A DNA stretch of 64,000 bases from Geomonas sp. RF6 (GTDB taxonomy: Bacteria; Desulfobacterota; Desulfuromonadia; Geobacterales; Geobacteraceae), in contig NZ_CP087999.1 in NCBI RefSeq assembly GCF_021044625.1, positions 62,001 to 126,000 on the forward strand, given 5' to 3'. The position numbers were made by a program, and so were the translations under genes. This document shows, piece after piece, positions 35,283-58,675 of this stretch; position 1 is the stretch's first letter; each line of letters begins with the position of its first letter. The notes under the pieces were generated by a model that was not told where the DNA came from, searched no databases, and saw only the letters and a list, made by a program, of their open reading frames with translations.

Positions 35283-35466
35283 ACCGTGCTCCTCTCTTCG
35301 TAGTTTTTTCGCCGCCCTGGGCGGCACTTTCTCATTTATCCCCTGAGACACTGAGAACACAGAGGAACCGCAATAGATCCCAACAGGAGGGGAGTTATCA
35401 ATGAATCGGCCACTTCCTGATTCCTCTATGTTCTCCGTGCCTCCGGGACTTCCGACGCACCCTTTT

Positions 35467-36390
35467 CTACACCAGGAGCTCTTTCGCCTGCCCCTCGGCA
35501 TGGTACGACGAGCGCACCAGCGGGCCGGCCTCCACGTGGGAAAATCCGAGCTCCCCCCCCAGATGCTCCAGCCAGGAGAACTCCCCCGGGGTGACGTACT
35601 TCACCACGGGGAGGTGGTGCAGGCTCGGGCGCAGGTACTGCCCGATGGTCAGCATGCGGCAGCCGTGCTCGCGGAGATCCCTCATGACCTCTGCCACCTC
35701 GTCCAGCGACTCCCCGAGCCCCACCATGAGCCCCGACTTCGTCGGAATATCCGGGAAGCGCTCTGCGAAGGCGCGCAGGAGGTTCAGCGACCAGCGGTAC
35801 TCCGCGCCTGGGCGCACCGTGGGGTAGAGCCGCGGCACCGTCTCCAGGTTGTGATTGAAGACGTCCGGGAGGTTCGGGGCGAGGCTCTCGAAGGCGAGAT
35901 CGAGTTTTCCGCGAAAGTCGGGCACCAGGATCTCCACCTGCACCGAAGGGGTCGTCTGTCGCACTTCCTTTATGCAGCTGGCGAAGTGGCCGGCGCCGCC
36001 GTCGGGGAGGTCGTCGCGGGTCACCGAGGTCACCACCGCGTACTTCAGCCCCATGACCTGCACCGCGCCGGCGAGCTTTTGCGGTTCATCAGCGTCGAGC
36101 GGGGCGGGCCGGCCGTGGGCGACGTCGCAAAACGGGCACCTGCGGGTGCAGACAGCCCCCATGATCATGAAGGTCGCGGTGCCGAGCCGGAAGCACTCAC
36201 CCATGTTCGGACAGTTCGCCTCCTCGCACACCGTGTTCAGGCTGCTCTTGCGCAGTATCCCGGTGATCCGCTCCACCTCGCTGCCGCAGGGGGATTTCAC
36301 CTTCAGCCACTTCGGCTTCGGGAGCGCGGGCGCGTGGCTCGCACCCTGTTTCTGCCGGCTTTTTTGACCTATTTCCTCAATCATCTTCAT
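35467..36390 (-). CDS. lipA: lipoyl synthase
   Basis: 307 residues. Radical SAM enzyme that inserts two sulfurs into octanoyl groups on lipoyl domains. The auxiliary cluster cysteines [12 protein letters not shown] (55, 60, 66) and the radical SAM motif CTRRCPFC (81, 85, 88) are complete; the C-terminal Ser ligand region RSSYHAEG is present. Encoded within the acetoin dehydrogenase operon, so cofactor synthesis follows induction of the enzyme that needs it. Confidence 0.97.
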
Positions 36391-36704: not shown

Positions 36705-38096
36705 CTACGACAGGAGCGCGTCCGGCGCCTCCATGATCGACTTCAGTTCCGCCAGGTACTTCGCGGCATAGGCGCCGTCGTGCACCCTGTGGTCGGCGGA
36801 GATGGTAACCCTCATGGTGCGGGCGATGCCGACCTCACCATTCTTGGCAACGACCTCATCCTTCACCTTCCCGACCGCGAGGATCGCCGAGAGCCCCGGG
36901 GGGACGATGGCGATGAAGTCCTCCACCCCCAGCATCCCCATGTTGGAGATGGCGAAGGTGCCGCCGGAGAGCTCTTCCTTGCCGAGCTTACCTTCCTTGG
37001 CGAGCCCCACCAGCTCGCGGCTTTTCACCCCGATCTCCGTTGCCGGGAGTTCCTGGCACTTCCTGATCACCGGCATGATGACCCCGTCGTCCAGCCCGAC
37101 CGCGACCGCCATGTTGACGTCCGCGTGCAGCGCGATGTTCTTCTCTGCGTAGGAGGCGTTCAGCAGGGGGAACTTCTGCAGCGCGACGGCGCACCCCTTG
37201 ATGAGGATGTCGTTGATGGAGACCTTCGTCCCCTTTTCTTTCAAGGCTCGGCAAGCCGACTCGGCAGCCCCCATGTCGATCGCCACGGTGACCATGTAGT
37301 GCGGAATGGTGGTCCACGAGTTCGTCACCGTCTTCGCGATGGCGGCGCGCATCCCCTGGAGCGGCTGCAGCGTCTCAGCTGGCGTTGCCACGGCGGCTGC
37401 CGCCGGTGCCTCCTGGGAGCCGGAAGCACTCTGCTCGGCCGGAGCCTGGGCCCCGCCTGCGAGGAAGGCCTCGATCTGCGCGTCGGTGACTTCTACCTCC
37501 GCTACCACCGCGAGGTCCGCCCCGACCGGGAGCACATCGCCGTCGGTGGCAATCTTCTTGCGCAGCACGCCGGCGCAGGGGGACTCCATCACGTTCACGA
37601 TCTTGTCCGTCTCCACCTCGGCGACCGCCATCCCCGGCACGATCGGCGCCCCTTCCTCGACCAGCCACTGCACGAGGGTCCCTTCCTCCATGGTAAGCCC
37701 CCATTTCGGCATGGTGAGGGTCTGGATACCTGCAGGCGCGGCGGCACCTGCTGCGGGGGGGGCAGACGCTTCCTGCGCGGAGTCGGCCGCGGAGGCGTCC
37801 CCCCCGCCAAAGCTCGCCACGAAGCTGTCCACGTCCCCATCGGAGACGCTCGCCTTTGCGATAACTCCCAGAAGCGCCCCCACCGGGAGGGTCTCATTTT
37901 CCCCGGCAACCTTCCGCACCAGGATTCCGGTCTGGGTCGCCTCGAGGACGTTCACTATCTTGTCCGTCTCCACCTCGGCTATCGCCATGCCGAGCTCGAT
38001 CTCCGTACCTTCCTCAATAAGCCATTGCACGAGGGTCCCTTCTTCCATGGTGAGACCCCACTTCGGCATCGTCAGTTCAGCCAGATTTGCGCTCAT
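36705..38096 (-). CDS. acoC: acetoin dehydrogenase E2, dihydrolipoamide acetyltransferase
   Basis: 463 residues. Two tandem lipoyl domains (about 3-80 and 127-203) each show the lipoylation site ETDKIVN (Lys46, Lys165). They are joined by Ala/Pro linkers to the catalytic acyltransferase domain (about 246-463), which keeps the active-site SADHRVHDG. The peripheral subunit-binding domain normally found between lipoyl and catalytic domains is not visible: the linker after residue 205 is only Ala/Pro/Gln/Ser-rich and runs into the catalytic core. Transfers acetyl from acetoin cleavage to CoA. Upstream gap to acoB is 313 bases and holds strong hairpins. Confidence 0.94.
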   Translation of the reverse strand: MSANLAELTMPKWGLTMEEGTLVQWLIEEGTEIELGMAIAEVETDKIVNVLEATQTGILVRKVAGENETLPVGALLGVIAKASVSDGDVDSFVASFGGGDASAADSAQEASAPPAAGAAAPAGIQTLTMPKWGLTMEEGTLVQWLVEEGAPIVPGMAVAEVETDKIVNVMESPCAGVLRKKIATDGDVLPVGADLAVVAEVEVTDAQIEAFLAGGAQAPAEQSASGSQEAPAAAAVATPAETLQPLQGMRAAIAKTVTNSWTTIPHYMVTVAIDMGAAESACRALKEKGTKVSINDILIKGCAVALQKFPLLNASYAEKNIALHADVNMAVAVGLDDGVIMPVIRKCQELPATEIGVKSRELVGLAKEGKLGKEELSGGTFAISNMGMLGVEDFIAIVPPGLSAILAVGKVKDEVVAKNGEVGIARTMRVTISADHRVHDGAYAAKYLAELKSIMEAPDALLS

Positions 38097-38409: not shown

Positions 38410-39429
38410 TTATGCAGCTTCCTGGGCCTTCACCACGGAGAGCGCTGCGTTGAGAACTTTCTCCGCATTGGGGATGTACAGGTCCTCCAGCGCCCCGGAG
38501 AAGGGAACCGGAGAGTGCGGCGCGGTCACCAGCTTGATCGGAGCAGCCAGCGCCTCGAAGGCGCCCTGGGCGACAACCGCCGCGATGTCCGCCGCCATCC
38601 CGGCTCTCTGATGCCCCTCGTCCACCACCACGAGCTTCCCGGTCTTCTCGACACTGTTCAGGATCGTTGCCTCGTCGAGAGGCGAGATGGTGCGCGGGTC
38701 GATGACCTCTGCGGTGATGCCGTCCTTGGCGAGCGCGTCGGCCGCCTGCAGCGCCATGTGCACCATGCGTCCGATTGCGACTATGGTGAGATCCTTCCCT
38801 TCGCGCACGATGTTAGCCTTGCCGAACGGAATGGTGTACGGCTCCGGAGCGACCTCACCCTTCATGGCGTAGAGGGCCTTGTGCTCCATGAAGATGACCG
38901 GGTTGTTGTCGCGGATCGACTCGATGAGGAGCCCCTTCGCCTCCGCCGGGGTGGAGGGGACGACGACCTTCAGCCCCGGGATGTGGGCGAAGATGTTGTA
39001 CAGGCACTGGGAGTGCTGTGCCGCGGCCCGGAAGCCGGCGCCGTACATCATGCGGATAACCACAGGGGTCTGTGCCTTGCCGCCGAACATGTAGCGGAAT
39101 TTTGCTGCCTGGTTCATGACCTGGTCGAAGCAGACCCCGAGGAAGTCGGAGAACATGAGCTCCACAACCGGCCTCATGCCGCAGGAGGCTGCGCCGATCG
39201 CCGCGCCGATGTAGGAGGACTCGGAGATCGGGGTGTCCATGACGCGGTCGCCGAACTTCGCGTACAGCCCCTTGGTTACCCCCAAAACCCCGCCCCAGGC
39301 GTCCATGACCCCCTGGGTGCCGCGCCCGCCGGCGTTGTCCAGGCCGAGCACGATGACTTTCTCGTCCCGCTCCATTTCCTGAGCCAGCGCTTCGTTTATC
39401 GCGTCTTTGTAGCTGATTTTTCTAGACAT
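38410..39429 (-). CDS. acoB: acetoin dehydrogenase E1 component, beta subunit
   Basis: 339 residues; transketolase-type pyrimidine-binding and C-terminal domains. MSRKISYKDAINEALAQEME start, GGRGTQGVMDAWGGV, MRPVVELMFSDF and VIDPRTISPLDEATI segments are typical of E1-beta. With AcoA it forms the TPP enzyme that cleaves acetoin to acetaldehyde and an acetyl group passed to lipoate. Starts 19 bases after acoA. The match is best to acetoin-type E1, but pyruvate dehydrogenase E1 is very similar; assignment rests on acoX and the butanediol genes. Confidence 0.94.
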   Translation of the reverse strand: MSRKISYKDAINEALAQEMERDEKVIVLGLDNAGGRGTQGVMDAWGGVLGVTKGLYAKFGDRVMDTPISESSYIGAAIGAASCGMRPVVELMFSDFLGVCFDQVMNQAAKFRYMFGGKAQTPVVIRMMYGAGFRAAAQHSQCLYNIFAHIPGLKVVVPSTPAEAKGLLIESIRDNNPVIFMEHKALYAMKGEVAPEPYTIPFGKANIVREGKDLTIVAIGRMVHMALQAADALAKDGITAEVIDPRTISPLDEATILNSVEKTGKLVVVDEGHQRAGMAADIAAVVAQGAFEALAAPIKLVTAPHSPVPFSGALEDLYIPNAEKVLNAALSVVKAQEAA

Positions 39430-39448: not shown

Positions 39449-40423
39449 TCAGTACGAGGTGTAGACGTCGGTGAGAAGGTCCGCGGCGGTGGGGTGCGGC
39501 GCAGCGATCGCCTTGGCGACGGACTGGTCGATGAGGGCGAGAACTTCCTTGTCGATCGCCTCCAGCTCCGCGGCGGTGACGAGACCTGCCGAGGTGACCT
39601 TCTGGGCGAAGATCTTCAGGCAGTCCTTCTCCTCGCGCTGTTTCTGCACCTCCCCCGGCTGGCGATAGGTCATGGCGTCACCCTCGAAGTGGCCGTAGAA
39701 GCGCTGGGTCTTGCACTCGAGGAGGGTGGGGCCGTGCCCCTCGCGGGCGCGGCGGATCGCCTCGCCGGCTGCCTCGTACACTGCAAAGAAGTCGTTGCCG
39801 TCCACGGTCACGCCGGGCATCCCGAAGCCGGCTGCGCGGTCCGAGATATTCGGGGTGGGGACGTTGTAGGCGACGCCGGTCGATTCGGCATAGCCGTTGT
39901 TTTCGTTTATGAAGACGACCGGGAGCTTCCAGATGCTGGAGAGGTTGAGGCTCTCCAGAACGGTCCCCTGGTTGGAGGCGCCGTCGCCGAAGAAGGCGAT
40001 GCCGACGGCCTTGTTGTTCTTGAACTTGGCCGCAAGCCCTGCGCCGCAGATCAGCGGAGGACCGGCACCGACGATGCCGTTGGCGCCCATCATCCCCTTC
40101 TCGAGGTCGGCGATGTGCATGGAGCCACCCTTGCCGCCGCAGGTGCCGGTCTTCTTGCCGTAGATCTCCGCCATCATGCCAGGGATCTCCACACCCTTGG
40201 CGATGCAGTGACCGTGGCCGCGGTGGGTACTGGAGATGCGGTCCTCGTCGTTCAGGTGCATGCAGACCGCGGTGGCGACCGCCTCCTCGCCGGAGTAGAG
40301 GTGCACGAAGCCGGGGATTTTCCCGGTCGCGAACTCCACGTGGAGACGCTCTTCGAATTCGCGTATCTCTTTCATTGTGCGATACGCCTTGAGCAGTTCT
40401 TCCTTCTTGAGTTTCGTAAGCAT
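39449..40423 (-). CDS. acoA: acetoin dehydrogenase E1 component, alpha subunit (TPP-dependent)
   Basis: 324 residues. TPP-binding motif begins GDGASN (146-151) and ends with ENNGYAES (174-181). HRGHGHCIAKG and GGKGGSMHIAD blocks match the acetoin/pyruvate E1-alpha family. AGGAGGA lies just before the ATG. Needs thiamine diphosphate, whose precursors are made by the thiCSG genes 4-7 kb upstream. Follows acoX by 119 bases. Identity as acetoin rather than pyruvate dehydrogenase comes from context. Confidence 0.95.
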   Translation of the reverse strand: MLTKLKKEELLKAYRTMKEIREFEERLHVEFATGKIPGFVHLYSGEEAVATAVCMHLNDEDRISSTHRGHGHCIAKGVEIPGMMAEIYGKKTGTCGGKGGSMHIADLEKGMMGANGIVGAGPPLICGAGLAAKFKNNKAVGIAFFGDGASNQGTVLESLNLSSIWKLPVVFINENNGYAESTGVAYNVPTPNISDRAAGFGMPGVTVDGNDFFAVYEAAGEAIRRAREGHGPTLLECKTQRFYGHFEGDAMTYRQPGEVQKQREEKDCLKIFAQKVTSAGLVTAAELEAIDKEVLALIDQSVAKAIAAPHPTAADLLTDVYTSY

Positions 40424-40542: not shown

Positions 40543-41580
40543 CTAGCGTGCGCAGAAGAGGTGATCTTCCGCCGCCTTTGCCATCACCCGGTCAATGTCT
40601 ATCGTTATGGGTCCTTCGAGATCCAACCAGACCCTTGGCCGGTCACGTCCGTTGAATTCCAGATCCCGCTCGCCATCGAAGGCAATCGTGCCGCTGCACG
40701 TCCTGAAAGCGCATATCTCCTTGGGGCGCAGCTCCGCCAGGTGCGACACCCCCACATCCTTCATGAGCCCCGGCGCGATCGGCACCGACACGGTGAACAT
40801 CCCCTCCCCCGGCGGCACTAGGTTCATGCGCAGCCCGTACGGGGCCCAGCGCTTCACCGGGTGCAGGTACCCCGCGATCGCTGAAAGCCCGATCGCGCTC
40901 GGCGAGGCGAAGGTGACAAAGAGCTCCCGCAGGTGGTCCGGTTCCCAGAGGGCGCGGGTGCCGACCCAGCAGTCGGTACAGACACAGAGGTCGACGAGGG
41001 CGATCTCGTGGCCGTTGCCGTTCAGGTCCACGTGGAGGACCTTGTTCTGGCAAGCGACCTCCGCGGCGGAGACCTTGTCCATCGCCACCAGCCCGGCCGC
41101 CAGCCCGGCGACCGTCGCCTCCCTGATCTCGGGGAAGGTGTTGTTGGTGCCGGTGGAGACGGCGACGATCGGGGTATCGCCGCACACCTTGGAGACGACA
41201 CGGTGGGTGCCGTCCCCTCCCATGACGATGATGACTGCCACCCCGAGAGCGACCATGCGCTCGACGGCGCGGATGGTGTCGATGGCGGCGTACTCGATCG
41301 GCATCTCCAGGAAGCGCACCGTCGGCCAGCCGTGCTCCTGGTGGAGCTTTCCTGTTTCGAGAGTGTGGCGGATCCGGCTGGTGATCCCGCCGGTGTCCGG
41401 CATCATCACCACCTCACGGATCCCGACGCTCCCGAGGGCGGAGAGGATGCGCTGCACCATGTTGCTCTTCTCCACAGAGGGAAAGACCGATGCCTGTGAA
41501 ACGAGCCGCCGAACGTCACGCCCCGACTGGGGGTTTGCCACGATGCCTACGAGCGGGTGATTTATCCTGGTCCGGCGCAT
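40543..41580 (-). CDS. acoX: AcoX, NAD-kinase-like acetoin catabolism protein
   Basis: 345 residues from ATG 41580, which has GGAGAG upstream; the open frame runs 51 codons further but through the promoter. Contains the diacylglycerol/NAD kinase signature VMGGDGTHR (about 121-129) and VGIVANPQSGRD near the start. AcoX heads aco operons in Ralstonia, Pelobacter and Clostridium, and its exact role is still unclear. Its presence here is the strongest marker that the downstream E1/E2/E3 genes serve acetoin. A -24/-12 promoter lies 46 bases upstream. Confidence 0.9.
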   Translation of the reverse strand: MRRTRINHPLVGIVANPQSGRDVRRLVSQASVFPSVEKSNMVQRILSALGSVGIREVVMMPDTGGITSRIRHTLETGKLHQEHGWPTVRFLEMPIEYAAIDTIRAVERMVALGVAVIIVMGGDGTHRVVSKVCGDTPIVAVSTGTNNTFPEIREATVAGLAAGLVAMDKVSAAEVACQNKVLHVDLNGNGHEIALVDLCVCTDCWVGTRALWEPDHLRELFVTFASPSAIGLSAIAGYLHPVKRWAPYGLRMNLVPPGEGMFTVSVPIAPGLMKDVGVSHLAELRPKEICAFRTCSGTIAFDGERDLEFNGRDRPRVWLDLEGPITIDIDRVMAKAAEDHLFCAR

Positions 41581-41625
41581 ACTCTCTCCGTCGGAAGTCC
41601 TGAGCGGTGCGTTTATCCCTATAGA

Positions 41626-41640
41626 GCAGGAGATATGCCA
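41626..41640 (-). promoter_or_regulatory. sigma-54 promoter of the aco operon
   Basis: Minus strand reads TGGCATATCTCCTGC: TGGCA at -24 and TGC at -12 with correct spacing. Predicted transcript start is about 34 bases before the acoX ATG. Confidence 0.65.
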
Positions 41641-41836
41641 GTAGTTGCTTGACTTTCTTGGATGGCGGGAAAGGGTGACTGAACTAATCGGAAGGGAGAG
41701 ATGTAAAGGTCTAGTTTTAAAGTTATTTATCATCGCAAGTTTCTGAAGAAGGAATGTGGTAGTGGGGCTGGAAGTGATATAGGGAGGGCGCTGTAACTAC
41801 TTCTGAAGCCTCTGGAGGGCGACTGTGCCAGAAGGA

Positions 41837-41875
41837 TGCGACAAGTGTAACAAGGGGAAATGAGACACCTGTTGC
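41837..41875. promoter_or_regulatory. candidate activator (AcoR) binding region of the aco operon
   Basis: TGCGACAAGTGTAACA (41837-41852) and CACCTGTTGC (about 41866-41875) lie about 200 bases upstream of the -24 element, a normal enhancer distance. CACCTGTTGC is also found before thiC. Confidence 0.45.
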
Positions 41876-41914
41876 GGGTGCCGATGTGGTGCTGGAGAAC
41901 GTACCGCTGGCTGC

Positions 41915-44555: not shown

Positions 44556-45335
44556 TTATTCTATCACTCCGTCGACAGGACTGGAGGCTGCGGCATAGAG
44601 CTTCTTCGGAATGCGCCCTGCGCGGTACGCCAGCCGCCCCCCCTGCACCGCGAGTTTCATGGCCTCAGCCATGGCGACCGGATCCTTCGCCCCGGCGATT
44701 GCGGTATTCATCAAGACGCCGTCGCAGCCGAGCTCCATGGCAATCGCCGCATCGGAGGCGGTCCCGACGCCAGCATCGACAATCACCGGCACCTTCACCG
44801 TCTCGAGGATGATCCTGATGTTGTACGGGTTCCTTATGCCAAGACCGCTGCCGATCGGGGCGCCGAGGGGCATGACGGCGGCACATCCGATCTCCTCCAG
44901 CCGCTTGCACACGATGGGGTCGTCGGAGGTGTAGGGAAGGACGGTGAATCCTTCCTTCACGAGGACCGCCGCCGCTTTGAGCAGCTCGTCGTTGTTCGGG
45001 AAGAGCGTCTTTTCGTCCCCCAGGACCTCCAGCTTCACGAAATCGGAGAGGCCCGCCTCGCGCGCGAGACGGCAGGTGCGCACGGCATCGTCAGCCGTGT
45101 AGCACCCTGCGGTGTTCGGAAGCAGGGTGTATTTCTTCAGATCGAGGTGGTCGAGAAGCGACTCCTTTGAGCGATCGGAGACGTTCACGCGCCGCACCGC
45201 CACGGTCACCACCTCGGCCCCCGACTTCTCGATCGACGTTGCCATCTGGGCATAACTGTCGTACTTGCCGGTGCCGACCATCAGGCGGGAGGAGAACTCC
45301 CTGCCACCAATGACGAGTTTGTCTTCAGATATCAT
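44556..45335 (-). CDS. thiG: thiazole synthase
   Basis: 259 residues from ATG 45335 with GGGAGG upstream; the longer frame starts inside thiS. Forms the thiazole phosphate of thiamine from deoxyxylulose phosphate, dehydroglycine and ThiS-bound sulfur. VGTGKY near residue 20, AVRRVN (about 48), [10 protein letters not shown] and the phosphate site [11 protein letters not shown] are present. Its first 11 bases overlap the thiS 3' end, so the two are coupled. ThiH/ThiO, ThiF and ThiE are not in the window. Confidence 0.96.
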
Positions 45336-45549
45336 CGCTCCCTCCTCCCCTTTGCCCTCCGCCCACGAACCAGACAATCTCCATCTGGTCCCCCTCCTTG
45401 AGGATCGTGCTGGCGTACGCTTTCTTCGGCACAATGTCCCTGTTTAGCTCCACAGCGAGAGCCTTCTCGTCGAAGGCCAGCGTCCGCAGGTATTCCTCCA
45501 CGGACATGGCGGTAATCTCTATTTCTTCACCGTTCACAGTCAATTTCAT
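45325..45549 (-). CDS. thiS: ThiS sulfur carrier with extended C-terminus
   Basis: 74 residues with a ThiS/MoaD beta-grasp fold (MKLTVNGEE start, [16 protein letters not shown]). Active ThiS ends in Gly-Gly, which becomes the thiocarboxylate. Here the GG of IVWFVGGG (about 59-64) is followed by ten more residues, QRGGGSDDI-type, because the frame runs over the RBS and start of thiG before a stop. Either the tail is removed by a protease, or the third glycine is not the real end, or a base is wrong in the sequence. Confidence 0.85.
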
Positions 45550-45571: not shown

Positions 45572-47386
<1,815 letters not shown>

Positions 47387-47414
47387 TCAAGTTACTGAAC
47401 GTGATGTCAATATA

Positions 47415-47429
47415 GCAAGAAGGGCACCA
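47415..47429 (-). promoter_or_regulatory. sigma-54 promoter of the thiC operon
   Basis: Minus strand reads TGGTGCCCTTCTTGC: GG at -24, TTGC at -12, correct spacing. The predicted start site is about 53 bases before the thiC ATG. The -24 half deviates from TGGCAC by two bases. Confidence 0.6.
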
Positions 47430-47546: not shown

Positions 47547-47595
47547 TGTGCGACATCTGTTTCATACTAGCTGAGTCACCTGTTGCAGTGTAACA
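47547..47595. promoter_or_regulatory. candidate activator (AcoR) sites before thiC
   Basis: TGTGCGACA (47547-47555) and the palindrome TGTTGCAGTGTAACA (47581-47595; arms TGTTnCA and TGTAACA). They lie 118-166 bases above the -24 element. CACCTGTTGC overlaps the palindrome and also occurs upstream of acoX. Confidence 0.5.
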
Positions 47596-48221: not shown

Positions 48222-50210
48222 CTACAAAAACTCGTTCGGCGGGATGATCGAGTGCTTGCGCATCTTCCGGTACAGCGTCGATCGGCTCATCTGCAGCTCT
48301 TTCGAGGCGTCGGTGATGTTCCACTTGTGCCGCCTCAAGGCGCTGTGAACGGCTTGGTACTCGGGATGCTTCGTATCGCTCTCCGTTAGCACTACGAGCT
48401 CAGGGGGGCTGATGATCACCGGCTTCGCCACCGGAGGAGCAGCGGTACGCACCACTTCCGGCGGCAGGTCCGCCACTCCGATGGTTCCCCCTTCGCTCAC
48501 GGCGATGCTGTAGCGCATGACGTTGCGCAGCTGCCGTATGTTACCCGGCCACGTGTAGTCGAGCAGGCACCCGAACGCTTCCGGATCGATCCTCATACTG
48601 TCGCTTCCGGCTTCTGCAGCAAGAACATTCTCGATCACCAGCGCCCTGTCCTGCCGCTCCCGGAGCGGCGGGAGGGTGATGGTGAAGCCGTTCAGCCGGT
48701 AGTAAAGATCCTCGCGGAACTGTCCGGCACGCACCATCTCCTCCAGGTTCCTGAGTGTGGCACAGATAACGTGCAGATCCACCCGTTGTGGCGTCTCGCT
48801 GCCGAGGGCGAGGATCTCCTTCTCCGCAAGGACGCGCAGCAGCCTCGTCTGCAGATTGAGCGGCATGTCGCCGATCTCGTCGAGGAATAGGGTCCCGCCG
48901 TCCGACTGCAGGATCTTCCCGCGCATCCCCTTGCTGTTGGCGCCGGTGAACGCTCCCTGCTTGTACCCGAAGAGCTCGCTCTCGATGAGGGACTCGGGGA
49001 TGGAGGCGCAGTTCAGCGCCACGAAGGGGCGACCAGCCCTGTCACTCGCCTCATGCACGGCGCGGGCAAAGACCTCTTTCCCCGTCCCGGTCTCCCCGAT
49101 GAGAAGGAGCGATATGTCCTTGTTCACCACCCGCTTGGCGAGGCCGGCGTTGCGCATCATCTGCGGATCGGTGCCGGCCAGGTAGTCGAGGGTAAGGGAG
49201 GTGTTTCCCTTCTTCGGGGCGGACTTGCCGATAACGAGGGTCTTTTCTCCTCGCGCCGAGGTGCTCATTTCCGGCGCCCGGAAGGTGGCGTAATACTGAA
49301 GCCCGGCGCTGAGAGCCCGGACAGGGAGGATGGTGGTGGTCTTGTGCAGGGCGTGGTTCATCAACTGGTCGAACTTCAGATCGAACACCTCGCCGACATG
49401 CCGATTGATCGGAGAAGCCCCGTGCGGCCCTGTCAGTTCCCGCAGCGCGCGGTCGTTGGCTGCGACCACGAAGCCCTCGCCGTCGACCGCGACGATGTTT
49501 TCGGTGATGACCTCCACGAACGCCTGCATGTGGTTGAAGCGGATGATCCAGTTGTCCTTGTACATGCGCAGGAAGTACGCGTTCTCGATCATCCGCGCGT
49601 AGTAGTTGACCAGTTGCAGGGCGAGGCGCTGGGAATTCTTGTCATCGGGAGGGCGAAGCAGCGAGACGTCGAGGGTACCGAGAAGCGCGCCGTCCGGCAT
49701 AAAAAGGGGGGTCGTGGAGCAGCTGAGGCCGATGTGCCGGGACCGGAAATGCTCGTCGCGGTGAATGGTGATGGCGCGCCGCTCCTCGATGCAGGTACCC
49801 ATCCCGCACGTCCCCTCTATCGACTCGGACCACACCGACCCGAGGTAGAGCCCCGCCTCGCGATTTTCCTTTTCATCCTTCGGGTCGCCGAGAAAGTCGA
49901 TCGTCACCCCGTTTTGGTCCCCGAGCAGAATGACGTAACCGGCAGGAGCGACCTTTTCAAAAAGGCTCTTCATGCCGGTCTTCGCTATCAGAAGGAATTC
50001 TTCCAGCGGTTCCTGGTATTCGCGCAGTGCTCTTCCTGAGAGGATACGGGGTTTGTTTCTGGCGGAGGGATCAATATTGTATCTGTTGACGCAACGCTCC
50101 CAAGAGCCTGCTATCTCACAGTCGGTGGCGCTAGTGGAGAGTGCGGTACTGCCGGAGTGTACGGAGCTGAATACCCTGTCAGCGTGTTTGCTCATGCCTT
50201 TGTCCCACAT
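48222..50210 (-). CDS. acoR: sigma-54-dependent activator, AcoR type
   Basis: 662 residues from ATG 50210, which has GGGAGG seven bases upstream. Domain order: GAF sensor (about 75-185, with GTCGMGTC), PAS-like (about 225-305), AAA+ domain (about 340-560; Walker A GETGTGKE at 372, sigma-54 contact loop GAFTGA at 419-424, LFLDEIGDMP), and a C-terminal Fis-type HTH (about 615-660, SRSTLYRKM). In other bacteria AcoR senses acetoin through the N-terminal region and activates aco operons from upstream sites. Own promoter looks like sigma-70. It lies centrally among the genes it should control. Confidence 0.92.
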   Translation of the reverse strand: MWDKGMSKHADRVFSSVHSGSTALSTSATDCEIAGSWERCVNRYNIDPSARNKPRILSGRALREYQEPLEEFLLIAKTGMKSLFEKVAPAGYVILLGDQNGVTIDFLGDPKDEKENREAGLYLGSVWSESIEGTCGMGTCIEERRAITIHRDEHFRSRHIGLSCSTTPLFMPDGALLGTLDVSLLRPPDDKNSQRLALQLVNYYARMIENAYFLRMYKDNWIIRFNHMQAFVEVITENIVAVDGEGFVVAANDRALRELTGPHGASPINRHVGEVFDLKFDQLMNHALHKTTTILPVRALSAGLQYYATFRAPEMSTSARGEKTLVIGKSAPKKGNTSLTLDYLAGTDPQMMRNAGLAKRVVNKDISLLLIGETGTGKEVFARAVHEASDRAGRPFVALNCASIPESLIESELFGYKQGAFTGANSKGMRGKILQSDGGTLFLDEIGDMPLNLQTRLLRVLAEKEILALGSETPQRVDLHVICATLRNLEEMVRAGQFREDLYYRLNGFTITLPPLRERQDRALVIENVLAAEAGSDSMRIDPEAFGCLLDYTWPGNIRQLRNVMRYSIAVSEGGTIGVADLPPEVVRTAAPPVAKPVIISPPELVVLTESDTKHPEYQAVHSALRRHKWNITDASKELQMSRSTLYRKMRKHSIIPPNEFL

Positions 50211-50467: not shown

Positions 50468-50782
50468 TCACCCCGCCTGTGCGAAGACGTCGTCGCCGCT
50501 TTTGAACTCCAGCCCCGGGTGGCAGTCGAAGCGCACAGCGCCGACCGCCGCCTTGTTCCCGACGGCCCGCTTTACCGCCGCGGTTCCCTCGGTGCCAAAG
50601 CCTCCGCAAAGCTCTATCGCCACCACCCCTTGCTCTACCAGCTTCCGCGCTGCCTCGGCAGCTGTCTCGTAGTCGGCTACCCCGACCACGGAGAGTTCGA
50701 CCACCGGTGTCTTGATCACGGTTGAGTGCTTCGTCGGGTCCGCCTCCGGTGCCACAAATAGAAACGCTGCTTTCAGTCCCAT
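50468..50782 (-). CDS. DUF6506 family protein
   Basis: 104 residues from ATG 50782 (GGAGG upstream). Short alpha/beta protein: AAFLFVAPEADP start, VGVADYETAAEAA, VAIELCGGFGTEG and RFDCHPGLE. This matches the DUF6506 pattern as I remember it; function unknown. The invariant-looking Cys-Gly-Gly and CHPGLE parts suggest a small-molecule binding or enzymatic role. Downstream of the VOC gene with a type A repeat between, upstream of acoR. Confidence 0.7.
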   Translation of the reverse strand: MGLKAAFLFVAPEADPTKHSTVIKTPVVELSVVGVADYETAAEAARKLVEQGVVAIELCGGFGTEGTAAVKRAVGNKAAVGAVRFDCHPGLEFKSGDDVFAQAG

Positions 50783-50820
50783 CTCGAGCCTCCTGAAATA
50801 GATTTTGCTGTCTCTGCCCA

Positions 50821-50935
50821 ACGTTCCCCCTCCCTTGAGGGGAGGGGGTCAGGGGGTGGGTGAAGCTGCCAGCTGCTGGAACGGTGGCACCTTCCCCCCC
50901 ACCCTGCCCCTCCCCCGCCAAGGGGGAGGGGACGT
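50821..50935. repeat. intergenic repeat type A, copy 4
   Basis: Same element as at 29184, 33629 and 36457, between the VOC and DUF6506 genes. Confidence 0.85.
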
Positions 50936-50953
50936 TATTACCTCGGTGGAACT

Positions 50954-51448
50954 TTACTTCTCCGGGTAGACCGCCTGCGGCTTCGGCCACTGGAAGTCAG
51001 GAACGAGGTTGTAGATCTCGGCGATTGTCCCGAGATCCTTGCAGGAGTCGAGGTAGGTGTAGGTGAGCCCTTCCCACGTCCCACCCTGCAGGATGGGGCG
51101 CCCTTTGTCGCTGAAAAATTGCACCGCCTTCTGGTAGTCGTCGGTGCCGAATGCGACGTGATGGACCCCTTCTCCCTTCTCCTTCAGGAAGGAGGCGTAA
51201 ATGCTGCGCTCGTCCTTCGGCTCGATCAGCTCCCACTGCACGCCCCCTATGTCGCAGAGCGCCAGGCGCATGGCGTAATCCTGCTTTTTCCCCTCGACGA
51301 TCATGTCGCTCACGGTGTCCGGATTGAACTCGTAGATCGACCACGGCCCGATGCCGTACTCGTCGGCGTACTTCTTCACGGAAGCATCACAGTCCTTTAC
51401 CACCACGCCTATCTGCAAGACTTTGCTGAACATCGGTTTGTCAGCCAT
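50954..51448 (-). CDS. VOC superfamily protein (glyoxalase/epimerase-like)
   Basis: 164 residues from ATG 51448 (AGGAGG upstream). Two beta-alpha-beta-beta-beta modules; HHVAFG (about 97-102) and IAEIYN (about 147-152) would supply metal ligands His and Glu as in methylmalonyl-CoA epimerase and lactoylglutathione lyase; the N-terminal module starts VLQIGVVVKD. Metal-dependent isomerase, lyase or dioxygenase chemistry is possible. 22 bases after the membrane protein gene, in the bdh operon, so a substrate among acetoin-like dicarbonyls is plausible. Confidence 0.82.
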   Translation of the reverse strand: MADKPMFSKVLQIGVVVKDCDASVKKYADEYGIGPWSIYEFNPDTVSDMIVEGKKQDYAMRLALCDIGGVQWELIEPKDERSIYASFLKEKGEGVHHVAFGTDDYQKAVQFFSDKGRPILQGGTWEGLTYTYLDSCKDLGTIAEIYNLVPDFQWPKPQAVYPEK

Positions 51449-51470
51449 GACTTCCTCCTGGAGTGTGGGG

Positions 51471-52613
51471 TCAGCTACTTTTCTTAACCAGCCCGTACGA
51501 GCCGAAGTACACGACAAAGATCAAGAGGACCAGGTTCAGGAGGTCGACCCAGGTGAGGGGGTCGCCGCCGAAGCCGGGGACGATCTCCGCCTCGTGAAGG
51601 ACCGATACCGCGAACCACTTCATGTACACCACGAAGGCTGCGATCCCCACCCCCCATGTGATGACGAAGCGCGCCGCCCGGTTCGCCGCGGGTCCGAGCG
51701 TAGTCGGTGTGTTGCCGCAGCAAAGCGCCCAGAAAAGGAGGACGTTGACGATCCACACGCCGAGCTGCGCGGGCCACAGGTTGATGGCAGGACCTATCTT
51801 TGCCACCGCGTCCGCCGGGATGAGCACGTTTTTCAGGAGCGCGAGCAGGATGAAATAGAGGCCGGTGCCGAGAATGATGTTGCCGAAGAAGGCGGCCATC
51901 GCCCTCCCTGCGCGGGTGCGAAACATGCTGTACGGCCACAGGTCGAGGATCAGCACCGTGGTGAGCCAGACGGTGATGACGGAATAGAACCAGCCGATGG
52001 CTGTGGGCAGCGACATCATCACGCGGTCCGGGGCGGTCCAGCTTGCCATGTTGGGGTAGATGAGGACGATGTAGCCGATGAAGGTCAGGAAGAATCCGGT
52101 GAAGAGCTGGGCGATTCCCGACATCGGCTGCTTCAGTCCGGCATCGGTCCAGGGCCAGCCGTCCATGCTGTTGGCGACCACCCCGAAGCCGTAGAAGCCG
52201 ATCAGTACGATGAGGCCGGCGGCGCCGTGGCCGGCATACCCTTTCGCGGAAAAGGCGGGATCGAGAGCACCGTACCCAAAGATGAGCAGCATGGGGACGG
52301 CGAAGCCTATCACCAGCGTCGCAACAGTCGCGACAATCCCCCCGATCGGCTGGCTCAGGCTGCTGAACCCGTACATGCCGCAGTTGAACCCGATGAAGAC
52401 GATCGCCAGGATGGCCCAGAAGAGGTATGCCCCGAACGGCTGCGGGTAGAACTTGAACATCCCGACCTGGGGATCGACGAAAATGCGCCACACCACGAAG
52501 CTGCCAAACTGGATCACGGCCAGGTTGGCGATGGCGTAGCCGACCGCACCGAGCTGGAGACCGAAAGGCTTGGCGGCGCTGACTACGTTTGTTGCCTCAG
52601 CTGAATTTGACAT
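51471..52613 (-). CDS. polytopic membrane protein of unknown function in the butanediol operon
   Basis: 380 residues from ATG 52613 (AGGAG upstream). About ten hydrophobic helices and few charged loops; several conserved-looking aromatic/Pro/Gly motifs in loops (MDGWPWTDAGLK, CCGNTPTTLG, NLWPAQLGVW). I do not recognise a transporter family. It lies between bdh and the VOC gene under the same presumed sigma-54 promoter, so uptake of 2,3-butanediol or acetoin or export of a product is a reasonable guess. It could also be a membrane oxidoreductase subunit, but no heme or iron motif is evident. Confidence 0.75.
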   Translation of the reverse strand: MSNSAEATNVVSAAKPFGLQLGAVGYAIANLAVIQFGSFVVWRIFVDPQVGMFKFYPQPFGAYLFWAILAIVFIGFNCGMYGFSSLSQPIGGIVATVATLVIGFAVPMLLIFGYGALDPAFSAKGYAGHGAAGLIVLIGFYGFGVVANSMDGWPWTDAGLKQPMSGIAQLFTGFFLTFIGYIVLIYPNMASWTAPDRVMMSLPTAIGWFYSVITVWLTTVLILDLWPYSMFRTRAGRAMAAFFGNIILGTGLYFILLALLKNVLIPADAVAKIGPAINLWPAQLGVWIVNVLLFWALCCGNTPTTLGPAANRAARFVITWGVGIAAFVVYMKWFAVSVLHEAEIVPGFGGDPLTWVDLLNLVLLIFVVYFGSYGLVKKSS

Positions 52614-52787
52614 AAGCGCTCCTGTTCTGTCTCGACATCGTCGGCGCCACTGGTCTCCCCGGGGGACCTTGCCGCATCGGCAGTGCCCCCTCCCCTGTTG
52701 CGCAGGAGCCGTGCAAGACATGATGGAAGTGTACCTATCGCACCTCCCCCCTCCCGGCACGGGAAGGGGGAGAATCAGTGGAGAAAG

Positions 52788-53870
52788 CTACACCCGAGCT
52801 GCGGAAGCCTGGGCGGTCGGGGAAACGATGATCTTGATATTGGCGTCCTTGTTGTTCACCAGTTCGTCGAAGCCCTTGGCGACGATGTCGTCCATGTTGA
52901 TCCTGCCGGTGATGAGCGGCTCGGCCTTCAGGGCGCCGCTGGCCAGAAGCTTCGCCACCCCCGCGAAGTCTTCGATGGTGTATGCGAGGGTGCCGAGCAC
53001 AACCTTGTCGGTGGCGCTCAGGCTGAAGAAGTTGAAGGAGCTCGGCTCCTCGAAGATCCCCACGATGACGGCGCGGCCACAGTTGCGGATCACCTCCACC
53101 GCGAGCGGGGCGGTCGCCTTGTTCCCGATGCACTCGAAGGAGACGTCGGCGCCGGAGCCGCCGGTCATCTTCTTGATTTCTTCCACCACGTTGCATTCCT
53201 TCGGGTCGAGGACGACGTCGGCGCCGCATTCATGGGCGAGCTTCTTTCTCGCGGCGGACATCTCCACCACGATGACCTTCCCTGCGCCGGCAGCTTTTGC
53301 CGCCATGAGGGTGCCGAGGCCGATCGTCCCGGCGCCGAGAACGACTGCGGTTTCGCCGAGGATGGTGCCGGCCTTGCGCACAGCCTTGAAGCCGGTCGCC
53401 AAAGGCTCGATGAGGGCGCCAGCCTCGGGGTTGAACCCTTTCGGAAGGACGTAGCAGAGCTTGGCGGGAACATTCACGTACTCGGCAAATGCGCCGTCGG
53501 CCATCAGGCCGGTAAAGGCCAGCTTTTCACAGACGTTGTAGTTGCCGCTGCGGCACGGTCCGCACTCCCCGCAGTGCTGGCAGGCATCCGGGGCGACGAG
53601 GTCGCCGACCTTCACGCTCGTGACACCGGGGCCGACTTCGACGACGGTTCCGGTGAACTCGTGCCCCAGGATGAGGGGAGCGGTCGAGCCAGTCAGCGGG
53701 TGGGGCTGGGTGGGGATGAATATCGGGCCTGCCACGTACTCGTGCAGGTCGGAGCCGCAGATGCCGCACCAGGCGACCTTTACCTTTACTTCGCCGGCTT
53801 TCGGGGCGGGGGGCTCGGGAACCGTTTCAACCCTGATGTCCTTCTTTCCGTACCACTTGGCAGCTTTCAT
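52788..53870 (-). CDS. 2,3-butanediol dehydrogenase, zinc MDR type
   Basis: 360 residues. Zn-dependent medium-chain dehydrogenase oxidising 2,3-butanediol to acetoin with NAD+. Catalytic zinc residues in CGICGSDLHE (about 37-46) and GHEFTG; structural zinc cysteines CQHCGECGPCRSGNYNVC (about 97-114); Rossmann motif GAGTIGLG (about 178-185). The N-terminus MKAAKWYGKKDIRVE is typical of (R,R)-butanediol dehydrogenases. AAGGAGAACG precedes the ATG. A -24/-12 promoter lies about 150 bases upstream. Related sorbitol and threonine dehydrogenases are the alternative, less likely in this setting. Confidence 0.9.
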   Translation of the reverse strand: MKAAKWYGKKDIRVETVPEPPAPKAGEVKVKVAWCGICGSDLHEYVAGPIFIPTQPHPLTGSTAPLILGHEFTGTVVEVGPGVTSVKVGDLVAPDACQHCGECGPCRSGNYNVCEKLAFTGLMADGAFAEYVNVPAKLCYVLPKGFNPEAGALIEPLATGFKAVRKAGTILGETAVVLGAGTIGLGTLMAAKAAGAGKVIVVEMSAARKKLAHECGADVVLDPKECNVVEEIKKMTGGSGADVSFECIGNKATAPLAVEVIRNCGRAVIVGIFEEPSSFNFFSLSATDKVVLGTLAYTIEDFAGVAKLLASGALKAEPLITGRINMDDIVAKGFDELVNNKDANIKIIVSPTAQASAARV

Positions 53871-54022
53871 TTCGTTCTCCTTTTTTGGTGGAATGACAGC
53901 ATGAATGGTTCATTGCACTGCTATTTTCTCTTTCTCACCTTCACAAGATTCAATCTCTGCACTCTCAGCAATTGATGCGGGTAAGACTCCGTTTTTCTAA
54001 AACATCTTTTGTCATGTAATGA

Positions 54023-54037
54023 GCAACTGTTGTACCA
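54023..54037 (-). promoter_or_regulatory. sigma-54 promoter of the bdh operon
   Basis: Minus strand reads TGGTACAACAGTTGC: TGGTAC at -24 and TTGC at -12, correct spacing. The leader to the bdh ATG would be about 140 bases. Confidence 0.7.
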
Positions 54038-54166: not shown

Positions 54167-54248
54167 TGTATCGCGACACATGTCGCATCAAAGGGGGAAG
54201 ATGACACAGTGATCGAGCAGCCCGGCAGCGAGATGCTCTATCGCGACA
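54167..54248. promoter_or_regulatory. candidate activator (AcoR) sites before bdh
   Basis: TGTATCGCGACA (54167-54178) overlaps the perfect inverted repeat GCGACACATGTCGC (54173-54186). TATCGCGACA recurs at 54239-54248. They start 130 bases above the -24 element. Confidence 0.55.
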
Positions 54249-55003: not shown

Positions 55004-55387
55004 TTACTCCGGGCTGTAGACCAGACAGGCGGCATTATCCTTTATGGCGACAGCACCTTCCTTTATCTGCCCCTCGACAACCTGCCCTTTGAAGTAGTGG
55101 TCCCCTGCGAACTCCAGGACCTTTATTTTCCCGACCTCGTGACGCTTTGTGACACCCGAGGTGAAGGCCTCGGTGTACACGGGGATCGTCTCTCCCACAC
55201 AGATGCTCTTTTTCACGTCTTCGGTGCCGCTATGGAAAAGCAGCACCTGGTCGCCGATGTTGAGAACCTTGCTCTTCTTCACTTCCACTTCGCTCTTGAT
55301 CGGCTTCTCGTACACAGAACATCCGGTGAAAACGGCGCTCATGGCGGCGATAGAGAGCAAAACGGTCATCCACAATATCTTTTTCAT
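55004..55387 (-). CDS. small lipoprotein of the outer-membrane protein operon
   Basis: 127 residues from ATG 55387 (AAGGAG upstream). Lipobox FTGC at about 20-23. The mature protein begins SVYEKPIKSEVEVKK and is beta-rich with a second Cys near CVGE and a third near the C-terminus. No family recognised. 61 bases downstream of the outer-membrane protein and presumably co-transcribed from the sigma-54 promoter at 56498. Confidence 0.75.
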   Translation of the reverse strand: MKKILWMTVLLSIAAMSAVFTGCSVYEKPIKSEVEVKKSKVLNIGDQVLLFHSGTEDVKKSICVGETIPVYTEAFTSGVTKRHEVGKIKVLEFAGDHYFKGQVVEGQIKEGAVAIKDNAACLVYSPE

Positions 55388-55448: not shown

Positions 55449-56315
55449 CTAGAAGATGTAGGCGAACTTCAGGTACACCGCATCGGTCTTTGTGTTGTTT
55501 CTGCCATCGACACCTCTCAGGTACCAGACGTCGGCCGCCAGTTTCTGCGTCAGGCTGAAATGATTTCCGATACCAATGGCGGTTTCATCCGAGCTGGCGA
55601 CGGTGGCACCGCTGCCGAGATCCTTTCCTTTTCCGGCGGAGACCCAGTCCAACTTCACAAACGGCTCGACATTGGGGATGAATTTGTAGGCGAGGGAGAG
55701 ATTGCCGAAAAGAAGGTCCCCCCTCTCCTGCTTCACCCCATTGTAGTGGCTGTCGCCACGAAGCTTGATCCCGAAATCGCCGTCGAAGGTGAGGCCCCCG
55801 AGGGTGTAGTTGGTGAGAAATGCCACGCTGTTGTCGATGGCGTGGTTGGAGATTTCATTGTCGCCAAACGGCACGTAGAGCCAGTACTCCAGCGCGGTCG
55901 TCCAGTTGGGGAGCGGTCTGATCCAGGAGACGATGCCGACCTGCGGGTCGATCATGCCGCTCACGCTGTCGTCGTTTTTCAATCTCACCGAGGCTCCCCC
56001 CAGCACCAGTTCCCACAGGAAACCGACGTTCGGCAGCGCATCGACCTTGAAGAAGTGGGCGAACTTGTTGATGGTCAGGAGCGAGTCCTGGCCGCCGGAG
56101 GGGCCGCCCCATGCGTTTCTGTCATCATTATAGATGTTGTAGGAAAGGATGACGTTGAAGGGGTCGTACTTCACCGGCAGGTCAAACTCGTGGACGCCGA
56201 TGACACTGTACGGAATGACCGACGCCTCAGCCTTGCTGAAGGTGCCGGTCGTGCAAATTCCTGCCATGGCTGTGACAATCAGAGCACAAAGTAAATTTCG
56301 AATCGTAAACCTCAT
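55449..56315 (-). CDS. outer-membrane beta-barrel, MetA-pathway of phenol degradation transporter family
   Basis: 288 residues with signal peptide cleaved near KAEA-SVIP. The body alternates hydrophobic and polar residues and ends in a C-terminal aromatic (YIF), as outer-membrane barrels do. Segments such as VILSYNIYNDD, GIVSWIRPLPNW and LAYKFIPNVEPFVKLDW fit the PF13557-type 'transporter' family linked to uptake of aromatic and other small organic molecules. AGGAGGGTACC is upstream. In this regulon it may be the outer-membrane entry route for butanediol or acetoin. Confidence 0.82.
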   Translation of the reverse strand: MRFTIRNLLCALIVTAMAGICTTGTFSKAEASVIPYSVIGVHEFDLPVKYDPFNVILSYNIYNDDRNAWGGPSGGQDSLLTINKFAHFFKVDALPNVGFLWELVLGGASVRLKNDDSVSGMIDPQVGIVSWIRPLPNWTTALEYWLYVPFGDNEISNHAIDNSVAFLTNYTLGGLTFDGDFGIKLRGDSHYNGVKQERGDLLFGNLSLAYKFIPNVEPFVKLDWVSAGKGKDLGSGATVASSDETAIGIGNHFSLTQKLAADVWYLRGVDGRNNTKTDAVYLKFAYIF

Positions 56316-56497
56316 GGTACCCTCCTTTTGCTGGCATGTGATGGTTTCTATTTCCGATCTTTCCTTTTAAAGCTGGTCTTCTCCCTCCTTTCCAAGCAAC
56401 GGCTCGAGAGTGGTTTTATTCGCACAGGAGAAATCTGATAAATCGGTGTTACTTTTCCGGATACTGCACCATTAGAGTCGTATACTCACCACTAAGA

Positions 56498-56512
56498 GCA
56501 ATCGGTATACCA
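56498..56512 (-). promoter_or_regulatory. sigma-54 promoter of the outer-membrane protein operon
   Basis: Minus strand reads TGGTATACCGATTGC, GG and GC at the right spacing. Leader to the ATG would be about 170 bases. The rest of the 522-base gap 56316-56837 contains only the activator site and terminator listed separately. Confidence 0.6.
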
Positions 56513-56837: not shown

Positions 56838-57641
56838 CTAGTTCATTACGATCCCGCCGTCGATCATTACCGACTGTCCGGTCATGTAGTCCGCGTCGCT
56901 GGAGGCCAGGTAGGAGACGAAGCAGGCCACCTCTTCCGGAACACCGACGGTCCCGGCAGTGATGAGCTTCGTGTACTCCTTGAGGACTTCGCCTTTCCCC
57001 ATGCCGAGGTACGGCCCCATCTTCTCGTCGATGAGCCCCCACATGTCGGTCCCCACGATCCCGGGGCAGTAGGCGTTGACGGTGATCTTGTGCGGGCCGA
57101 GTTCCTTGGCGAGCGCCTGGGTGAAGCCCCTCACGGCAAACTTGGAGGCGCTGTAGGCGGCAAGGATGCTGAAACCGGAGTGAGCCGCGATGCTGGCGCA
57201 GTTGATGATCCTGCCGCCGGAGCCCATGGTCCCCTTGTGCCCCTGTTTGATCATCTGCCGGGCGGCGACCGTGTCGCAGATGAAGACGCCCCTGCAGTTC
57301 ACCGCAAAGATCTTGTCCCACTCGTCCGCCGTCATCTCGATACTCATCTTGATGTTGGCGATCCCTGCGTTGGCAACCATGATATCCAGCTTGCCGAACT
57401 CCGCCACGGTGGTATCCACCAGTTTCTGGACGTCCGCTTCCTTGGTGACATCCGTTACCATCGCCAGCGTCCTGGCGCCGAGAGCTTTGATCTCTTCAGC
57501 GACCTTCTTCACGTTATCCGCATTGATGTCGGCCACCACCACGGTCGCTCCGTCCTGCGCCAATCTGAGGGCAATGCCTCTGCCGATGCCGCGCCCGGAT
57601 CCTGTAACGATCGCCACCTTGTCCTGGAGTTTCTTGCTCAT
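56838..57641 (-). CDS. acetoin reductase / 2,3-butanediol dehydrogenase, SDR type
   Basis: 267 residues from ATG 57641 (AGGAGGGG upstream). Short-chain dehydrogenase: TGSGRGIGRG near residue 14, NAGIANI, catalytic Ser in NCASIAAHSG and YSASK (about 165). Residue pattern is that of BudC-like meso-butanediol dehydrogenase/diacetyl reductase. It interconverts 2,3-butanediol or diacetyl and acetoin with NAD(H). The frame extends 50 codons upstream through the promoter. Context favours the butanediol assignment over generic SDR. Confidence 0.87.
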   Translation of the reverse strand: MSKKLQDKVAIVTGSGRGIGRGIALRLAQDGATVVVADINADNVKKVAEEIKALGARTLAMVTDVTKEADVQKLVDTTVAEFGKLDIMVANAGIANIKMSIEMTADEWDKIFAVNCRGVFICDTVAARQMIKQGHKGTMGSGGRIINCASIAAHSGFSILAAYSASKFAVRGFTQALAKELGPHKITVNAYCPGIVGTDMWGLIDEKMGPYLGMGKGEVLKEYTKLITAGTVGVPEEVACFVSYLASSDADYMTGQSVMIDGGIVMN

Positions 57642-57705
57642 GGCCCCTCCTCCTTTAGTTTTGCCATCATCAGCGATGGTCAATAGTGTGCTCAAGCCGG
57701 TTTCA

Positions 57706-57720
57706 GCAACTTTAGTGCCA
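57706..57720 (-). promoter_or_regulatory. sigma-54 promoter of the SDR gene
   Basis: Minus strand reads TGGCACTAAAGTTGC, a perfect TGGCAC-N5-TTGC. The predicted start is about 53 bases before the SDR ATG. Confidence 0.85.
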
Positions 57721-58491: not shown

Positions 58492-58675
58492 GAGTACATG
58501 GGGAAAAGCCGAGCTGTATCGTCACCAAAGCAGAAGCTTCGGCCGACAATATGCGTGTGAGAAATCCTTCAGCAACTCCAGTGCCAATGCAGACGAAAAA
58601 GTGGACAGGCAAGGGGATACCGTGTCCTCTTTTTCGGCATCAAGCGTTCGGGGACATAGGTGACACTTTTGTCCT

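Follow-up and report, generated by a model that had tools for sequence, protein, structure and literature searches.

The closest described counterpart of the genes considered here is the acetoin dehydrogenase gene cluster of Pelobacter carbinolicus (Pcar_0329 onward), which was described in 2012 (PMC3543383). According to the accessible part of that description, most of the 28-gene cluster is upregulated on acetoin; Pcar_0329 was proposed as a channel for acetoin/butanediol, Pcar_1398 and Pcar_2509 as channels for glycerol and 1,3-propanediol, a DUF190 protein as a possible modulator and Pcar_0333 as a CoA epimerase (PMC3543383). In the same text, uptake of butanediol/acetoin through the inner membrane has the standing of a proposal. 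The locus compared with this cluster lies in Geomonas sp. RF6, on a stretch of 64,000 nucleotides that was analysed as a whole (the window, to which all positions refer), around a gene for 2,3-butanediol dehydrogenase (bdh, product BDH). Next to bdh there are genes for a membrane protein, called MEM here, a VOC protein and a DUF6506 protein; ALT denotes the membrane protein of 329 amino acids (aa) that represents the Pcar_0329 family.

Among the genomes of the class, G549 carries the order ALT-BDH-DUF6506-VOC-DUF190-OMP-activator-thiC-thiG-acoX-acoABC-acoL, where OMP is an outer-membrane protein. By its gene order this cluster is probably the published one of P. carbinolicus, and the three ALT copies of the genome fit Pcar_0329, Pcar_1398 and Pcar_2509. 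Compared through G549, the window and the P. carbinolicus cluster have in common bdh, VOC, DUF6506, OMP, activator, thiC, thiG, acoX, acoABC and acoL, and the P. carbinolicus-type combination of a budX-clade dehydrogenase, an AcoR-type activator and acoXABCL is found in the window. BDH is 73-82% identical to the copies in class genomes of the bdh clade and 76-77% identical to the G549 copy, equated with BudX; VOC is 77% identical in G549. The difference lies in the membrane protein, since the P. carbinolicus cluster has an ALT-family protein together with DUF190, whereas in the window MEM takes that place and DUF190 is absent. The original prediction had presented bdh, MEM, VOC and DUF6506 as the best candidate for an undescribed set of activities; judged by gene order, this set corresponds to the cluster published in 2012, as far as its accessible text goes (PMC3543383). 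The module is thus already described, and only PMC3543383 was found when Pcar_0329 was sought in full texts. MEM as a second form of it was not found described in a literature search made mostly without subscription papers. For the slot of the membrane protein an uptake role has already been proposed (PMC3543383, accessible text); MEM itself shows no detectable relation to the Pcar_0329 family.

What appears to be new is MEM as an alternative membrane protein in the putative uptake slot, swapped several times in evolution. In a survey of 277 genomes of the class, 17 belong to the bdh clade, delimited by a cut-off chosen here (E <= 1e-130). The slot beside bdh is filled by MEM in eight of them and by ALT in nine, never by both and never by neither. 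An eighteenth genome, G031, whose bdh is truncated by a contig end and which stands outside the 17, also has ALT in the slot. MEM was found in no class genome beyond those eight (8/277), and a search of the window genome with ALT gave no match, MEM occupying the ALT position. The count of strong ALT matches (17 of the 21 genomes listed) leaves out G047, G590, G607 and G638, with E near 1e-4 to 1e-3. In the stretches searched, DUF190 (assigned by Pfam in G010) accompanies 9/9 ALT cassettes vs 0/8 MEM cassettes, window included. Four genomes of the same family (G010, G016, G021 and G031) keep DUF6506 and VOC without MEM, and have ALT and the DUF190 protein between BDH and VOC. Two MEM carriers, G026 and G556, possess an additional ALT copy elsewhere in the genome.

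Three genera (g11, g267 and g307) each hold both states. The best bdh tree contains six changes between MEM and ALT, of which well-supported branches force at least three, in a tree whose Geobacteraceae part is poorly resolved and whose outgroup branch is very long. The two proteins share operon position, many hydrophobic segments and linkage to diol enzymes; unlike these features, a sequence relationship is undetectable (hhalign probability 0.5%, E 0.11). Because two membrane proteins without detectable relation repeatedly swap in one fixed operon position, the function of the slot seems to be needed. The exchange offers indirect but good evidence of this and a clean pair for complementation. 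Because one or the other fills the bdh slot, with at least three forced changes, MEM most likely takes over the role proposed for ALT, that is, the passage of butanediol/acetoin across the inner membrane. Diol import by the membrane protein had already been suggested in the original prediction, and it is the reading that the sequence best favours.

The genomic surroundings of MEM are consistent with this role. Five of its six close relatives on genome contigs lie inside the same cassette, in two gene orders: BDH-MEM-VOC-DUF6506 (window, L005, L006 and L010) and OMP-MEM-BDH-DUF6506-SDR-activator, the latter without VOC (L008 and L009). These loci are the same records as the genomes G029, G026, G003, G551 and G556 (L005, L006, L010, L008 and L009, respectively) and do not count as separate evidence. 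In G003 (L047) the stretch that begins with BDH and continues with activator, thiC, thiG and acoX as far as acoL has the order of the window. The G003 cassette also holds a universal stress protein gene between MEM and VOC (L010:9216-9659). Outside the class, a plasmid of Paraburkholderia caribensis carries a frame-shifted MEM homologue, ~54% identical, between an annotated acetoin reductase and a 2,3-butanediol dehydrogenase. The dehydrogenase and SDR of that plasmid are only 38% and 49% identical to those of the window, and the AcoR-like gene upstream shows no sigma-54 domain.

The association with acetoin dehydrogenase genes was counted with acoA, assigned to 25 genomes at >=67% identity among the matches listed, those at <=44% being treated as other E1 enzymes. 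Among these matches acoA is present in 6/8 MEM carriers vs 19/269 other genomes (Fisher p 7e-6, uncorrected for kinship). The original prediction had named co-occurrence as the check on its idea, and the four genes do travel with bdh and the acetoin genes across class genomes. That the set is a butanediol/acetoin module is therefore supported. In L127 (G640:C3:1066000-1083000), G016 and G031, acoA occurs twice with equal scores, ~3.5-3.9 kb apart, and in L127 acoB does so too, so that these three genomes hold tandem copies of E1 genes.

On balance, the locus is probably that part of a regulon for acetoin degradation which deals with butanediol, with MEM as the inner-membrane passage. The AcoR-like activator would sense acetoin and act through palindromes and sigma-54, switching on bdh-MEM-VOC-DUF6506 and acoXABCL and also the synthesis of thiamine, whose diphosphate serves acetoin dehydrogenase as cofactor. 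Both 2,3-butanediol and acetoin would cross the outer membrane via OMP and the inner membrane via MEM, which would work without a DUF190 partner, whereas ALT in the relatives would work with one. BDH and SDR would oxidise the diol stereoisomers to acetoin, AcoABCL would cleave it, and VOC and DUF6506 may have an auxiliary task, acting either on acetoin or on something that acetoin dehydrogenase forms as a by-product. Removal of diacetyl or of acetylacetoin-like compounds, which the original prediction also suggested, is neither favoured nor contradicted by the results.

The four genes stand in a row on the minus strand behind a strong sigma-54 site, as originally noted, and all four are present; the unit is larger than these four, since it adds OMP, SDR, the activator and, through shared sites, thiC and acoX. 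Sigma-54 sites were scored by a simple weighted consensus (full score 17.5, C/T and G/A admitted at two places), and only the site before bdh reaches the full score. The six top sites of both strands are those before bdh, SDR, OMP and thiC, one at 58586 and one inside an open reading frame of 1059 aa (13122-16301). The nine upstream regions of bdh scanned in relatives contain no strong site (best 14.1 of 17.5). The separate bdh promoter of the window is not general, because strong sites in relatives precede SDR, OMP or ALT. Relatives of the activator, with 47-73% identity, were found in 13 other bdh cassettes, plus G550 and G552; the G016 cassette has two tandem AcoR-like activator genes (L043:10115 and 12698).

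The palindrome TGCGACA-nn-TGTCGCA, a candidate activator site, appears to be a further new element, as it stands before bdh, acoX and thiC and would connect thiamine synthesis with acetoin dehydrogenase. With <=2 mismatches it occurs three times in the window, at these three genes, against 0.13 expected from a first-order Markov model; these upstream regions and those of relatives had served to define the motif, so neither this count nor the next ones amount to independent tests. Across 346 kb of 16 other genomes, picked for containing cassette or aco genes, there are 18 sites vs 0-5 in eight simulations. Eleven of the 18 have a cassette, thiC or aco gene no more than 800 bases downstream; for five, the aligned part of acoX or thiC begins ~250-390 bases further on, in alignments that start 26-50 residues in; two, both in L042, are not so placed. 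G551, G556 and G548, three of the 16, are without a site. A distinct AcoR motif is named in the accessible text of a paper on sigma-54 in Clostridiales (PMC6615313).

With regard to VOC, its metal ligands were reported as intact in the original prediction, and alignment to epimerase structures places them at Gln12-Glu73-His96/97-Glu144, conserved in 16/16 homologues. Sequence family and ligand positions are those of the methylmalonyl-CoA epimerase/glyoxalase group of the VOC superfamily. VOC may epimerise 3-hydroxybutanoyl-CoA that acetoin dehydrogenase forms by a stray aldol addition; the accessible text on P. carbinolicus proposes this for Pcar_0333 (PMC3543383), and it is a possible though doubtful assignment. 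It agrees with that published proposal, with the match to the methylmalonyl-CoA epimerase model TIGR03081 (E 1.2e-11) and with matches to epimerase structures (~2e-9), which rank after a structure labelled 'lactoylglutathione lyase and related' (6e-21). However, the model gives 45.2 bits, below its curated cut-off of 114.95, and two MEM cassettes (L008 and L009) show no VOC. Furthermore, the first ligand is Gln, where epimerase structures have His, and the Gln-Glu-His-Glu set resembles that of human glyoxalase I rather than that of an epimerase.

The description of MEM as a ten-helix protein of no recognised family held, since a simple hydropathy scan gave 10-11 hydrophobic segments and no Pfam or NCBIfam family was found above cut-off. 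Neither sequences of solved structures in the PDB (E up to 10) nor a scan of viral contigs for further relatives gave any match. Several observations weigh against a passage of butanediol/acetoin through MEM, or against parts of the scheme built on it. The AlphaFold model, built with 7 sequences, reached a pLDDT of 36; at this confidence no predicted fold backs MEM as a transporter. MEM and ALT may share a remote fold, as their profiles are shallow (effective number of sequences, Neff, 1.6 and 2.4). The wider family does not seem to be butanediol-specific, because its branch of 430-aa Desulfobacterota membrane proteins (A3) lies near acyl-CoA synthetase genes in 4/13 loci (L012-L024). The MEM profile that shows no relation to ALT does detect these proteins, as remote relatives (hhalign probability 97.8%, E 9e-13, 247 columns), but they are longer, 26% identical and have different neighbours. 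On the plasmid of Methylibium petroleiphilum PM1, a MEM homologue (L032:14974-16092, 55%) lies between transposases, near cobalamin and mutase-type genes, without any other cassette gene in the 31 kb around it; we take this to be the region of tert-butyl alcohol degradation. The sixth close MEM relative, L007, has no cassette gene beside it, on a contig that begins ~2 kb upstream of MEM, and ALT of the G550 cassette aligns as two out-of-frame pieces, so that it may be broken or misassembled. No strong sigma-54 site precedes acoX in the window. acoA was not detected in the MEM carriers G026 and G029; the G029 contig ends at acoX and the G026 cassette contig past the activator, and broken assemblies are the likely cause. 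Finally, small diols may pass membranes unaided.

Some of these points fit a different function, in which MEM assists the dehydrogenase or energy conservation from the membrane, or exports a toxic intermediate such as acetaldehyde, the exchange with ALT reflecting that role. The function of MEM is read from position, its model yields no usable fold, and homologues neighbour acyl-CoA synthetases or, in PM1, have no bdh near them. Such a role is nevertheless unlikely, since ALT copies accompany varied diol and alcohol enzymes, which substrate passage fits better than an accessory specific to bdh. Of the seven non-cassette ALT loci listed, the five whose neighbours were scanned have glycyl-radical diol dehydratase-type genes (L091, L094 and L097) or iron alcohol dehydrogenases (L092 and L100) nearby. 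The best PDB match of ALT (E 0.028, haemoglobins, ~50 residues) was taken as chance. The 430-aa family is highly conserved in Desulfobacterota, and the two members scanned have no Pfam match above cut-off.

The tie between DUF6506 and the acetoin genes of the class is another apparently new result. Its conserved Cys and His, pointed out in the original prediction, correspond to Cys59 and His88, invariant in 6/6 aligned sequences. DUF6506 occurs in 22/277 genomes: the 17 of the bdh clade, G031 and four that lack this bdh, all four with acoA. Among the matches listed, 18/22 DUF6506 carriers have acoA vs 7/255 others (Fisher p 4e-19, kinship uncorrected). It stands directly before acoX in G494 and G514; in G448 and G449, where 5.3 and 13.9 kb around it were covered, none of the other query genes turned up, though both genomes have acoA. 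One of 14 control genomes has it (Bacteroides ihuae). Plasmid searches with VOC, DUF6506 and ALT led to three opened neighbourhoods, including an unannotated Embleya stretch, and those of VOC in Rubrobacter and of DUF6506 in Latilactobacillus are without a gene annotated for acetoin. The association with acetoin use holds within this class. A full-text literature search gave no paper on DUF6506. An apparent DUF6506-SDR fusion (alignment row L110) most likely results from a walk of the reading frame past a stop dropped by MAFFT, and DUF6506 of L008 ends at a stop.

VOC or DUF6506 could be an acetoin racemase, interconverting (R)- and (S)-acetoin for the stereospecific BDH, SDR and AcoAB. Enzymes of the VOC type use a metal to help remove a proton from the position next to a carbonyl, which is the chemistry that racemisation of acetoin needs, and DUF6506 accompanies acetoin genes even without this bdh. 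The DUF6506 model (pLDDT 86) weakly resembles the Rossmann-like lobe of arylmalonate decarboxylase, and these decarboxylases share a superfamily with racemases; they are its best Foldseek matches. These matches are weak (E 1.9e-3, TM-score ~0.5); in the VIA comparison all values stay within background, with Z 6.1 for arylmalonate decarboxylase and 6.6 for the best entry, a mechanosensitive channel, and PDB sequences gave nothing better than E 0.025, for a designed protein. The 2012 paper suggests that a pair of dehydrogenases could turn one isomer into the other with no racemase involved (PMC3543383). One published model postulates an acetoin racemase, which the experiments underlying another did not confirm (PMC4709696). 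A racemase in the cassette is thus quite improbable. Hardly better than a long shot is the combined idea that MEM founds a transporter family for small diols/hydroxyketones, repeatedly exchanging with the unrelated ALT/DUF190 channel, and that VOC or DUF6506 is the postulated racemase.

That the cassette chiefly serves a vicinal diol other than 2,3-butanediol, or a secondary alcohol, is very unlikely: among curated models BDH comes closest to scyllo-inosose and threonine dehydrogenases, below cut-off, and ALT paralogues have been proposed for other diols, but acoXABCL and an AcoR-like activator are linked to the cassette, SDR has acetoin reductase as its top curated match, slightly below cut-off, and most of the P. 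carbinolicus cluster is acetoin-induced (PMC3543383, accessible text).

The features of the window are collected in the following table.

Table 1. Cassette genes, promoter-like sites and candidate activator sites in the window (the names thiC and thiG are presumptive; HTH, helix-turn-helix).
Feature	Position	Strand	Remarks
BDH, zinc-dependent 2,3-butanediol dehydrogenase (putative BudX orthologue)	52788..53870	-	360 aa, ADH_N/ADH_zinc_N
MEM, predicted inner-membrane facilitator of 2,3-butanediol/acetoin	51471..52613	-	380 aa; position in bdh cassettes
VOC, methylmalonyl-CoA-epimerase/glyoxalase-like (putative Pcar_0333 orthologue)	50954..51448	-	PF13669, 60 bits
DUF6506 protein	50468..50782	-	PF20116, 127 bits vs gathering threshold 27
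AcoR-like activator	48222..50210	-	GAF, weak PAS, sigma-54 interaction, Fis-type HTH
OMP, outer-membrane protein	55449..56315	-	PF13557 family
SDR, acetoin reductase/meso-butanediol dehydrogenase-like	56838..57641	-	TIGR02415 290.5 bits, cut-off 304.35
Small lipoprotein-like protein	55004..55387	-	no family; 46-47% identity to L003/L005/L048 (all G029)
thiC	45572..47350	-	near activator in relatives
thiG	44556..45434	-	beside thiC in relatives
acoX (NAD-kinase-like)	40543..41733	-	G003 (L047) keeps same order
acoA, E1 alpha	39449..40423	-	67-85% identical in 24 other class genomes among matches listed
acoB, E1 beta	38410..39429	-	
acoC, E2	36705..38096	-	
acoL, E3	33870..35501	-	
Sigma-54-type site before bdh, TGGTACAACAGTTGCT	54022..54037, 5' end 54037	-	full score, best of the window on both strands
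Sigma-54-like site before SDR	57705..57720	-	16.5 of 17.5
Sigma-54-like site before OMP	56497..56512	-	16.3 of 17.5
Sigma-54-like site before thiC	47414..47429	-	15.5 of 17.5
Candidate activator site before bdh, palindrome CGCGACACATGTCGCA	54172..54187	.	1 mismatch to TGCGACAnnTGTCGCA
Two tandem candidate activator sites before thiC	47549..47587 (47549, 47572)	.	2 and 3 mismatches
Two tandem candidate activator sites before acoX	41837..41876 (41837, 41861)	.	2 and 3 mismatches

Besides the window, the cassette of one relative, G029, has the small lipoprotein-like gene, which takes another position there, beside DUF6506. A 20-base repeat, CCCCCCTTTGCGAAGGGGGG, is found at 54352-54371 and 54556-54575 and has 185 exact copies genome-wide, counting both strands, and none when read backwards. 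Many of the first 100 places listed are inverted pairs ~200-260 bases apart, like the ends of small mobile elements of the miniature inverted-repeat type, and one such pair lies directly upstream of the bdh promoter region.

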